Shown here: positions 1 to 10,459 of the stretch, piece by piece
Position numbering within the stretch: position 1 is the stretch's first letter
Layout of the letters: each line of letters starts with the position of its first letter
Assembly: GCA_028692735.1 (NCBI GenBank)
Contig: JAQUWS010000001.1
Coordinates: 1-64,000, forward strand
Direction: 5' to 3'
DNA from: Candidatus Altimarinota bacterium
GTDB lineage: Bacteria; Patescibacteriota; Gracilibacteria; BD1-5; UBA6164
Length of the DNA: 64,000 nucleotides
The notes under the pieces: generated by a model
What the model was told of the DNA's origin: nothing
The model's database searches: none
The model's input: only the letters and a program-made list of their open reading frames with translations
Position numbers and translations under genes: made by a program

Positions 1-56
1 GAACCCACGACCTCTAGGTCCGCGGCCTAGCGTTCTTCCAACTGAACTACGGGAGC
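1..56 (-). tRNA. tRNA-Arg (anticodon GCG), 3' part cut by window edge
   Basis: Read on the minus strand this begins GCTCCCG (acceptor), TA, then a D arm (GTTC/GAAC with an 8-nt loop containing GG), a perfect anticodon stem CTAGG/CCTAG, a 5-nt variable region and the start of the T arm (GTGGG TTC). The rest of the T arm and the 3' acceptor strand lie outside the window. The seven-base anticodon loop is CCGCGGA, so positions 34-36 read GCG and would decode arginine CGC/CGU. Position 33 is C instead of the near-invariant U. The fold is seen directly; the identity follows from the anticodon. Confidence 0.85.
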
Positions 57-6022: not shown

Positions 6023-8299
6023 TTAGTCAATTTTTGATTTTACATAATTGTCTGATCTGTAGACTCTTCATTCTATTCAGTTTGATACTATATATAATTT
6101 CTTTTCTCAATAGAAATTATCAATAAATCTTTTTTCTTGTCATTGTCCGCGTCATATTAAATCAGCTCTGTTTTTTTGTTCCATTAGTGTTAATTTATGT
6201 CATGAAAAAATTATTGTTATTCATTTTTCAGCACAGATAGTTTCTATATGTCATCTAAAATGGTTTGAAGCTCATGTAACTATAACAACTCAATCTTTAG
6301 GTAGCATACTTTCGTCAAAGTTATTTATTCCTAAAGAACAAAATTGACTTCAGTCAAATATAACACATCATTTTTCATTACTATTATTTTTCCAATTAGG
6401 TAATATATCTAGAGTAGTATCAACTGCTCATAAACTTCTTCATCTAAATAAAGAATTTTTGTTTTTTGGAAAAGTTATATCACTTTTTTGGGAGTAGTTT
6501 TCAGGTAAATAACGGCTTTGGAGTATATGTAAAATAGGCTCATCATACAAATCAAGTATAGTTTCAATTTGAATTGCTTTGTTGTAATGTTTTTCAAGTA
6601 AGTAGCAAATTATTCATATTTCTTCAATTTGATCAAAAAGAGAATATGATCAAACTCGTTTTGAATCAAGTTGGTAATGAAATGAATTTCTTTCATTTGA
6701 GTTAGGATCTGTAATTTTTTCTATTAGTTTATTTTTATTTATTATTGGTCTAAGTTTTGATTCATCTTGATTTTCTCACATTTCTAATTCATATTGTTTA
6801 TATTCAAATACTATATCCATAAGCTCAGGTACATTTTTTAGTATAGTATTTATATAAATTTTTTCATTTTTATGATGTTCATCAATATATTCTTGAATGA
6901 TTATTCACATTTCTTCTTTGTTGATTTTATTATCTTTTTGGTATTTTATAGCTTTTTCACTATTTGTTGATTCATAGATTTTTATTATTTCATTTTTAAA
7001 TTCTTCAAAACTTGCATTTTCTTTAAGTGTAATTGACTCATAGATTCAAGCTCATGTTGAATTTTCGTTATCTTCAGAATATAGTGCACTACTTCTTAGT
7101 ATGACTTTTTTGCCTTTTATTTGGTTAAAGTAGGTTTTTAATTCTTTATCTATGTTTTCATTGTTTTTCCATTTTTTGTGGATTGAAACTGGTATTTTTT
7201 CATATGCAGGAATATTTAATTCTTTTATTTCATAATAAAAAGGAAGTTTAGTTTTTTCTCTTAATAAATTTAGTTTTTCAAGAAATTCTTTAATCATATC
7301 TAAATTGGCTCATTTTGCTCAGTAAATTTTAGTTTTTTCTTCTAACTTTTTTTTATCTATTATTCATATTGTTTCATCAAAATCGTTTAAAAATTCAGCT
7401 ATTTGTAAGTTTATACTTGCTGTATCTAATCAATATACATGAGCTATAACTCTTTTTTCATCATATCTGTATACATCAGTTTCTTTATCAATTTGGTATA
7501 TCAAATCCATAGTAATAGGAATTCCTTCTCTTCTATGACCATCTAGGAAATATTGGTTTTCAGTAAGTAGTTTTTCAAGTTTCTCTTTTAAAATTTGTAC
7601 CAATTTTTTTCTTTTTTGAGTGTCTGTTTCATTTATAGATTTATTTGATATGTCTTTTATTTGAGCTATTTTAATATTGTCTATATTGTATATCAAATAA
7701 TATCTAACTTTTTCAATTTTTTCTTGTATTTCATCTTTTGATTGCTTAATTCAATGTAATTTTAGTATTGATTCGCTTAGTTCTGGATTATTTTTTAAAT
7801 TATCTAAGAACTTTAACGTGTTGTCTAGATTTGTTTCAGGAAAGTTAATGTTTATTTCATAATTTAATTCATCATCATCTTGTTTTAGATCAAGTTTATT
7901 AAAAATGAAAACAGCTATTTCTAAGTATCAATTTAATGTGTTTTGAATGTTTATAAGAGTATGTTTTAAAGTTTTTAATTTATTACTTATTTCTGAAAAC
8001 TCTATTTTATCCCAGTATTTTTCAAAGTACTTATATGCTAGTTCTGGGGTATTTTCTATATTTTCTATATTTTTTATCAGTTCTTGGAAATCATAAAATC
8101 AGTATTTTTTATAAGTTTTTGTTATAAAATTTATAGGATTTATTTCATCAAGATTTGTTTGATTGAAAAGACTAAATATAAAATCAGTGTAATCCATTAT
8201 TGTGCTTACTTTTGTTTTTGAATTGTTTATATGTTGTTCAAACTCAGTATTATTTCTTTGCTTTGAAATATCTCAATTTAGATTGTTTAGAGTAGACAT
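6023..8299 (-). CDS. PEP synthase/pyruvate phosphate dikinase-like protein (divergent)
   Basis: 758 residues. The first 330 or so are helical and unrecognised. Around residue 330 an ATP-grasp-like PPDK N-terminal region begins (KTKIYGAKGANLDM), followed by the nucleotide-binding signature VILRSSALYSEDNEN and by an I-L-R-L-type ILHILQSRYL segment. The C-terminus holds a swivelling domain (GVVIVTGASNHFRGHIETIC, AEKGITII) in which the H of RGHIE fits the phosphorylated histidine of PEP-utilising enzymes. No PEP-binding TIM barrel follows. This is what rifampicin phosphotransferase-like and other short members look like, but the true substrate is unknown. Phosphotransfer is inferred, not shown. 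Confidence 0.6.
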
Positions 8300-8440: not shown

Positions 8441-8674
8441 ATCAAATAAAAGCGATTGAGCAGAAAACAACTGCGAGCTGAAGGAAGAAAGTGAAATATT
8501 AATTGATTTCTGAAAAGTTGTTTCAGAATGACTATTAAAGTAATTATTAGAACCTTCCGAGAGTAAAAGCTCTTGTTACAAAAAATAAAATTAAGAAATA
8601 GCTTTTGGTGGCACCTCCTCGTTTTTAGCGAGGCCGAAAGCACACATTAATTTTATGTGTGTTTTTATTTTTAA
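8441..8674 (+). promoter_or_regulatory. T-box riboswitch (transcription attenuator) for aspS
   Basis: An antiterminator of canonical build is visible. Helix A1 is CTTTTGG (8602-8608) with CCGAAAG (8634-8640), the T-box bulge is TGGCACCT (8609-8616) and helix A2 is CCTCG/CGAGG. TGGC is complementary to GCCA, the 3' end expected for tRNA-Asp with discriminator G73. A competing terminator (AAAGCACACAT ... ATGTGTG then TTTTTATTTTT, 8637-8672) shares its 5' arm with A1, as the T-box mechanism requires. A small stem III-like hairpin lies near 8559-8577. Stem I should occupy about 8441-8500, but I could not place the specifier codon. Uncharged tRNA-Asp would favour aspS expression. Confidence 0.78.
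8504..8534 (+). repeat. Dispersed hairpin repeat inside the T-box leader
   Basis: TTCTGAAA, loop AGTTG, TTTCAGAA and then TGACTA. This has the stem-loop-stem-TGAC format of the dispersed family. It sits between the presumed stem I and stem III of the aspS leader. Alternatively the hairpin may be a native leader stem that only resembles the repeat. Confidence 0.6.
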
Positions 8675-8686
8675 AAAAATTATATT

Positions 8687-10459
8687 ATGCTTAGAACTAT
8701 TACATGTAATGAACTTACAAAAGAAAATGTATGACAAGAAGTAACTCTTTGTTGATGGGTATCAAATAGAAGAGATCATGGGTGAATTATATTTATTGAT
8801 TTGAGAGATAGATATGGTATAACTCAAGTAGTTTTTGATCCTGAAGATGATAAACAATCTTGGCTTGAAGCTAATGATTTTAGAAGTGAATTTGTAGTAC
8901 AAGTTACTTGAAAAGTAAGAAATAGACCTGACTGACAAAGTAATCCAAATTTAAAAACAGGAGATATAGAAGTAATTATAAAAAATACTAGATTGTTATC
9001 TAAATCTAAAACTCCTCCTTTTGAATTAGATGATTTTTGAGATTTAGCAGGGGAGGATATAAGATACAAATACAGATATATAGATTTAAGAAGAAGAAAG
9101 GCTTTAGAAAATGTTACTTTTAGATCAAATTTCTTAAATTTTACTAGAAATTGGTTTGCTAGTAATGAGTTTTTAGAAGTTCAAACTCCTATTTTTACTG
9201 TTTCTAGTCCAGAGTGAGCAAGAGATTTTTTAGTTCCTTCAAGAATTCATCCAGGTAAATTCTATGCTTTACCACAAGCTCCTCAACAATATAAACAACT
9301 TTTAATGGTTTGATGAATTGATAAGTATTTTCAAATTGCTCCTTGTTTTAGAGATGAGGATCCTAGAGCTGATAGACATGCTTGTGAATTTTATCAGATT
9401 GATGCTGAAATGAGTTTTGTTGAACAAGCAGATGTATTTAATGTAGTTGAAACATATATAAAAGATGTAGTAAACGCTGTAAGTAAAAAAGAAGTTTTAT
9501 GAGATTTCAATATATTAAGTTATGATGAAGCTTTAGAAAACTATGGTAGTGATAAACCTGATTTGAGATTTGGTATGAAATTTGTTGATTTAACAGATAT
9601 ATTTAAAAATAGTGATTTTTCAGTTTTTAAAAATGTTTGTGATACAAATTGAGTAATAAAAGCTATCAAATTGGAATGACAAACAATGAGTAGAAAAGAT
9701 ATAGATGATTTGACTCAAGTTGCTATAAAAGCTTGAGCAAAATGACTTGCTTATATCATTTATGATGCAGTTGAATGACCAAAATCACCAATATTGAAAT
9801 TTTTTAGTGATGCAGAAATGAAAGAAATGGAATCAAGACTTGAACCAAAAACTTGAGATATAATTTTCTTTTCAGCAAATGAATTTAAAAGAGCAGTTTG
9901 AGTATTGTCTGTTGTTAGACTTGCTTTAAGAGATAAATTTAACTTAGCTGACAATGATAAATTATCATTTGCTTGGATAGTTGATTTTCCTATGTTTGAA
10001 CAAGATGAAGTAACTTGAAAACTTGATTTCTGTCATAATCCTTTTTCTATGCCACATGGTTGAGTTGAAGCATTTGAAAGACAAGATTTATTGAATATAA
10101 AAGCTATACAATATGATTTAGCTTGTAATTGATATGAGATACTTTCTTGATCTATAAGAAATCATGATGTAGAAAGTTTAGTAAAAGCATTTTCTATAGT
10201 ATGAAGAGATAAGCAAGAAGTAATGGATAAATTTGGGGCAATGTATGAAGCTTTTCAATACTGAGTTCCTCCTCATGGATGATTTGCTATAGGTATGGAT
10301 AGATTTATGATGATTTTAAAAGATGAAGAAAATATAAGAGAAGTTTATGCTTTCCCTAAGTCATGAAAAGCTCAAGATGTGATGATGAATGCTCCTTCTA
10401 TTATTGATCAATCACAATTAGATGAGTTACATATTGAAATAAAACAAATTGAACTTTAG
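8687..10459 (+). CDS. aspS: Aspartyl-tRNA synthetase
   Basis: 590 residues, the full bacterial-type length. An N-terminal OB anticodon-binding domain ([20 protein letters not shown]) is followed by class II motif 1 ([20 protein letters not shown]), motif 2 ([16 protein letters not shown]), the GAD-type insertion around residues 290-400 and motif 3 ([19 protein letters not shown]). [12 protein letters not shown] is the usual aspartate-binding segment. It charges tRNA-Asp. Whether it is discriminating or also charges tRNA-Asn cannot be told here. It is controlled by the upstream T-box leader. Many conserved glycines are UGA. Confidence 0.97.

Follow-up and report, generated by a model that had tools for sequence, protein, structure and literature searches.

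A short-stem-I T-box leader upstream of aspS in a Gracilibacteria genome, with tRNA-Asn as its probable ligand

Introduction

The nearest known kind of element to the leader described here is the short-stem-I ("class II") T-box of actinobacterial ileS genes, as in Mycobacterium tuberculosis and Nocardia farcinica (PMC7583486, PMC10651847, PMC1262725). The specifier lies in a side bulge in T-boxes with a long stem I and in the apical loop in those with a short one, and the smaller, translational class is found mostly in Actinobacteria (PMC7583486). The solved ileS T-boxes contain a K-turn in stem I, an S-turn in stem II and a IIA/B pseudoknot (PMC10651847). An earlier survey recorded T-boxes in Firmicutes, Actinobacteria, Chloroflexi and a few other groups (PMC2494555), and TBDB sought the short-stem class in Actinobacteria only (PMC7778990). 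Our search of the literature available without subscription found no work joining T-boxes with CPR, Patescibacteria or Gracilibacteria; in PMC11665869, the only riboswitches mentioned are synthetic.

In this work, we analyse a leader located in the initial 64 kb of contig C83 (hereafter, the window) of a 92%-complete, 1.53-Mb assembly of a Candidatus Altimarinota bacterium. Judging from its sequence, it is very likely a transcriptional short-stem-I T-box by which aspS is regulated in response to uncharged tRNA-Asn.

Results

The open reading frames of the window genes require TGA to be read as glycine (table 25). The leader is flanked by a divergent minus-strand gene (6023-8299) and by aspS (8687-10459, plus strand). 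Read with this code, aspS encodes a bacterial AspRS of 590 aa, whose RRDHGG and RPDG motifs we take to be usual in non-discriminating enzymes of bacteria. The stretch of the window immediately before the leader yielded no consensus promoter, and no ribosome-binding site is visible before the aspS start at 8687. The named matches of the leader were mostly Candidatus Gracilibacteria. At the contig end, a truncated tRNA gene (1-56, minus strand) has an anticodon read by eye as GCG (Arg).

The 251-nt leader, on the plus strand, folds better than 200 of 200 shuffles (z = -3.4). Stem I (8451-8479) is formed by an outer AGC/GCU helix (8451-8453/8477-8479) and an inner GCAG/CUGC helix (8460-8463/8471-8474), with a K-turn-like GAUUGA/GA loop and an apical AAAACAA loop. 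The latter holds the predicted specifier codon AAC (Asn) at 8466-8468, followed by A8469. The first-pass annotation of this DNA had remarked that a normal stem I would have to be accommodated in some 60 bases; the stem I does fit, being of the short, apical-loop type. Stem II (8480-8557) starts with GAAGG/CCUUC (8480-8484/8553-8557), continues with AAGAA (8485-8489) facing UUAGAA (8547-8552), a loop S-turn-like by sequence only, and encloses a lineage-specific extended hairpin. The whole 8480-8557 hairpin was also considered as a long stem I and rejected, because the outer part corresponds in alignment to stem II of the Ile T-boxes and the inner hairpin is specific to the lineage. A stem IIA hairpin with an F-box-like UUGUUA follows (8558-8578), whereas the pairing of a IIB pseudoknot is visible only by eye, in some relatives.

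The T-box core GGTGGCACC occupies 8607-8615, with the bulge UGGCACC at 8609-8615; its UGGC (8609-8612) is complementary to the GCCA end of a G73 tRNA, and one extra unpaired base, U8616, stands in place of the G that usually follows. The sequence GGTGGNACC occurs twice in the whole 1.53-Mb genome, both times on the forward strand, and a reversed control pattern does not occur at all. The bulge belongs to an antiterminator (8601-8641; -16.0 kcal/mol alone) composed of helices A1 (8601-8608/8634-8641, arms GCUUUUGG and CCGAAAGC) and A2 (8617-8621/8629-8633). Downstream, an intrinsic terminator with the structure AAAGCACACAU-loop-AUGUGUGUUUU and a U-run spans 8637-8673, its hairpin (8637-8665) alone amounting to -11.1 kcal/mol. 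As the first-pass annotation had recognised, the two structures have an arm in common, namely AAAGC at 8637-8641, which makes them mutually exclusive folds.

A terminator hairpin with U-run is present in all 34 testable aspS leaders and in 74 of 80 other loci, its 5' arm overlapping the antiterminator arm in 34/34 and in 69 of the 80, respectively. Shuffled controls for the aspS-leader terminator gave 3/102, and -8 kcal/mol was reached by 33/34 real aspS downstream segments vs 2/102 shuffled ones.

The Rfam model RF00230 reported no match in the leader at any E-value up to 10 (gathering cut-off, 93 bits), and of 341 genomes scanned in the class, not one passes its cut-off. Even an actinobacterial ileS T-box receives only 33.9 bits from it, and scores so far below the cut-off explain why short-stem T-boxes were missed earlier. 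A covariance model built from the aspS leaders of 14 relatives, with the window excluded from training (model R1), matches 8447-8642 with 122.1 bits (E = 5.3e-33). An RF00230 score below threshold had been named beforehand as evidence against a T-box; such a result was indeed obtained, yet it is overridden by the lineage-specific model, the covariation and the gene context, which together uphold the proposal of a T-box in a CPR genome.

The covariation was assessed in structure-fitted alignments of leader loci. The aspS gene was found in 91 of 99 related genomes, and the DNA upstream of each copy was read. More than 30 of these leaders have one common layout, starting with AAGC..UYGA-G(CAG)nnAACAn(CUG)C-GA-GCU and continuing with a stem whose internal loop reads AAGAA/UAGA, then a third hairpin and ..GGUGGCACCU. 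In the alignment used to train R1 nearly all pairs are kept, and several show two-sided changes, such as a CG pair replaced by UA in stem I or a GC pair by CG in stem II. Moreover, when the structure of the aspS group was laid on 81 other, mostly Ile-type loci, 94.8% remained paired, compared with 30-50% in slid controls, and 29 of the 33 pairs showed two-sided changes (629 in all, vs 152 in shuffles). Across those loci, pairing in the stem I helices reaches 99.6-99.7% and both strands of the helices vary; the corresponding values in alignment A7 are 98.3% for stem II (two-sided changes in 5/5 pairs), 97.6% for stem IIA, 85.8% for A1 and 96% for A2. The stem II loop, which by its sequence appears to be of the S-turn type, is conserved as AAGAA/AGUAGA-type (UUAGAA in the window), and the same loop is present in Nocardioides. 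A T-box relic, or a plain terminator that senses no tRNA, would be consistent with the lack of any Rfam T-box at or below threshold, but the compensatory changes, the persistence of both specifier and bulge across distant genera, and the match between codon and downstream gene make this reading hardly credible.

The identity of the tRNA was addressed by tabulating codon and bulge for 113 loci of the class. AAC occurs with UGGC in 36 loci, AUC with UGGU in about 75, and GAC/UGGC and AAC/UGGU in one each; one cell of this table was corrected by eye. The covariation between codon and bulge base (Fisher p ~7e-29) is indicative only, given that the test ignores phylogeny and related loci are dependent; both states recur in many genera, and the single exception is an aspS leader (L032) with AAC and UGGU. 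Copies before aspS combine AAC with UGGC and the others AUC with UGGU. The AUC copies precede ileS (~20 cases), ilvA (threonine deaminase), thrC, ridA and several genes of unclear role, named by reading N-terminal sequences rather than by profile search. The stem I specifier thus fits the tRNA of the downstream pathway (AAC with aspS; AUC with ileS, ilvA and thrC), and the bulge complements the NCCA end of the same tRNA, with C accompanying AAC (tRNA-Asn, G73) and U accompanying AUC (tRNA-Ile, A73).

In the genome under study, tRNA-Ile(GAU) ends in ACCA and tRNA-Asp in GCCA. The tRNA-Asn gene is absent from the 92%-complete assembly and its G73 is taken from relatives: a tRNA-Asn(GUU) pattern matched 72 of 99 genomes, with a GCCA end. 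The lone ACCA match, in G082, is spurious: it falls next to the real gene, on a sequence that is not a tRNA. The first-pass annotation had assigned the bulge to tRNA-Asp; the complementarity to G73 tRNAs, tRNA-Asp included, holds, but tRNA-Asn equally has G73 and the bulge alone cannot discriminate between them. The aspartate specificity was not borne out, the apical codon being AAC. The same annotation had found no GAU or GAC specifier. The codon is indeed neither of these, but a specifier is present, as AAC at 8466-8468, and was overlooked because GAU or GAC was expected.

A T-box for tRNA-Asp, whose specifier would lie in the internal loop of stem II or be AAC read by wobble, nevertheless has some points in its favour, that is, the aspS gene itself, the G73 of tRNA-Asp and the GAC or GAU that precedes UAGA in stem II of some relatives. 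In addition, one aspS leader (L057, of G005) has GAC (Asp) in its apical loop, the only one to do so, in a rebuilt stem GUCUCG/CGGGAC, so that tRNA-Asp sensing is possible in that relative. For the window leader we consider this reading quite unlikely, as 37 loci carry AAC as their apical codon, and the triplet before UAGA, rejected here as a specifier, varies freely (UAG, UAU, GAC, CAG and others), equally in Ile-type loci.

Discussion

The presence of a tRNA-Asn switch before aspS would be explained if AspRS charged tRNA-Asn as well. Where a bacterium lacks AsnRS, Asp-tRNA-Asn is formed by a non-discriminating AspRS and then amidated by GatCAB (PMC4206432). No AsnRS over the TIGR00457 cut-off was found in the genome under study or in any of 77 genomes examined from the same order (G000-G076), a few of which gave weaker AsnRS-profile matches (169-211 bits), whereas AsnRS is present in 13 more distant genomes of the class. 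GatB is present in the genome under study (467 bits) and AsnRS is absent from its assembly, suggesting that its AspRS is probably non-discriminating and also charges tRNA-Asn.

If one AspRS serves both tRNAs, the leader might be a dual sensor for tRNA-Asn and tRNA-Asp. The probable breadth of the enzyme, the occurrence of both AAC and GAC in the lineage and the G73 common to the two tRNAs agree with such an arrangement. Against it, the A in the first codon position would be mismatched with C36 of tRNA-Asp, and T-box decoding takes three Watson-Crick pairs (PMC7583486), which leaves dual sensing highly improbable.

Under the tRNA-Asn reading, the nascent leader would present AAC in the apical loop of stem I, where the anticodon GUU of tRNA-Asn would pair with it, the S-turn of stem II bracing the duplex. 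The 3' GCCA of uncharged tRNA-Asn would then pair with the bulge UGGC, and the antiterminator would keep AAAGC, allowing RNA polymerase to read into aspS. With aminoacylated tRNA-Asn the bulge would stay empty, AAAGC would join the terminator and transcription would stop. In this way sensing of charging would be coupled to readthrough, and more AspRS would restore Asp-tRNA-Asn and hence Asn-tRNA-Asn.

Control by tRNA-Asn linked to an aspS has a precedent in Clostridium acetobutylicum (cited in PMC4206432), where, as reportedly described by Saad et al. in 2012 and 2013, a T-box puts tRNA-dependent amidation under the control of tRNA-Asn; this is said to be a canonical Firmicutes T-box that controls a second aspS together with gatCAB. 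The two cases would have in common a tRNA-Asn T-box tied to aspS and tRNA-dependent amidation. The canonical T-box (RF00230; Firmicutes, transcriptional) shares with our leader the UGGN bulge, the competition of antiterminator and terminator and the position before a synthetase gene, but the leader is devoid of the canonical long stem I, with its specifier side bulge and T-loop apex, and a canonical stem III is not established in it.

The likeness to the actinobacterial ileS T-boxes is closer. The order of elements is the same (K-turn stem I, apical codon followed by A, stem II with an apparent S-turn, stem IIA with a putative IIB pairing, bulge), and the codon lies in the apical loop of a short K-turn stem I as in class II. 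The actinobacterial elements differ in being Ile-specific and in blocking the ribosome-binding site, whereas the window leader combines AAC with a terminator and its U-run. R1 also matches the ileS leader of Nocardioides terrae (42.6 bits, E = 1.8e-10), which has the same stem II layout. A DNA pattern derived from stems I and II of Gracilibacteria, run over ~85,000 named species genomes, matched 29 loci. Most came from Gracilibacteria and other CPR, two bore the label Nomurabacteria, and one was located before ileS of Nocardioides terrae. Since this pattern also matches before the latter gene, the CPR and actinobacterial elements are of the same architecture and are probably homologous.

Of the 353 class genomes scanned, 83 contain members of the R1-type family, and 80 further loci were fetched and compared. 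Among genomes sampled across the phylum, 36 of 380 contain the family, the loci read being mostly before ileS with AUC. Four phylum loci (L244, L248, L251 and L255) have GUC-A in an enlarged apical loop of stem I and a UGGU bulge, some of them before ValRS-like class I synthetase genes, and are possibly Val-specific short-stem T-boxes. The AAC type, in contrast to this phylum-wide distribution, is confined in our data to families f1 and f2 within the order of the genome under study.

Other leaders add to this picture. The genome under study has a second copy elsewhere (C51:6940-7104; L104 1501-1665), which scores 100 bits with R1, has an apical loop CU-AUC-AA and a UGGU bulge (Ile), and precedes a NUDIX hydrolase and a GNAT acetyltransferase, not an Ile gene; T-boxes before NUDIX genes recur in relatives (L154, L158, L171 and L182). 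A third, very small T-box (C89:8720-8842; L001 1501-1660), with 35.6 bits for RF00230, has one hairpin with apical GUUGGAAA (GGA, perhaps Gly) and a UGGA bulge that fits the U73 of the genome's own tRNA-Gly. A RidA-like gene (L283) and a GlyRS-like gene (L284) are each preceded by a similar loop. Sub-threshold RF00230 matches (L263-L287) lie before genes read as argG, argF, argB, thrS, glyS, ileS and AspRS/AsnRS-like genes, contexts which suggest a broad T-box repertoire in CPR.

Based on our data, we regard it as fairly probable that short-stem-I T-boxes are old, phylum-wide, mostly Ile-specific and transcriptional in CPR, and that in one Gracilibacteria order the specificity of an Ile copy shifted to tRNA-Asn through joint changes in codon (AUC to AAC) and bulge (UGGU to UGGC), bringing aspS into step with the indirect Asn-tRNA pathway. 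The direction from Ile to Asn is drawn from distribution rather than from a tree, the Asn type occurring only in this order and the Ile type both phylum-wide and in Actinobacteria.

The occurrence of the short class across CPR shows that standard annotation overlooks such T-boxes, through which bacteria that depend on a host would sense their amino acid supply directly. The family may also provide a natural transcriptional counterpart to the solved translational T-box structures, as well as an example from nature of a switch in specificity through joint alteration of codon and bulge.
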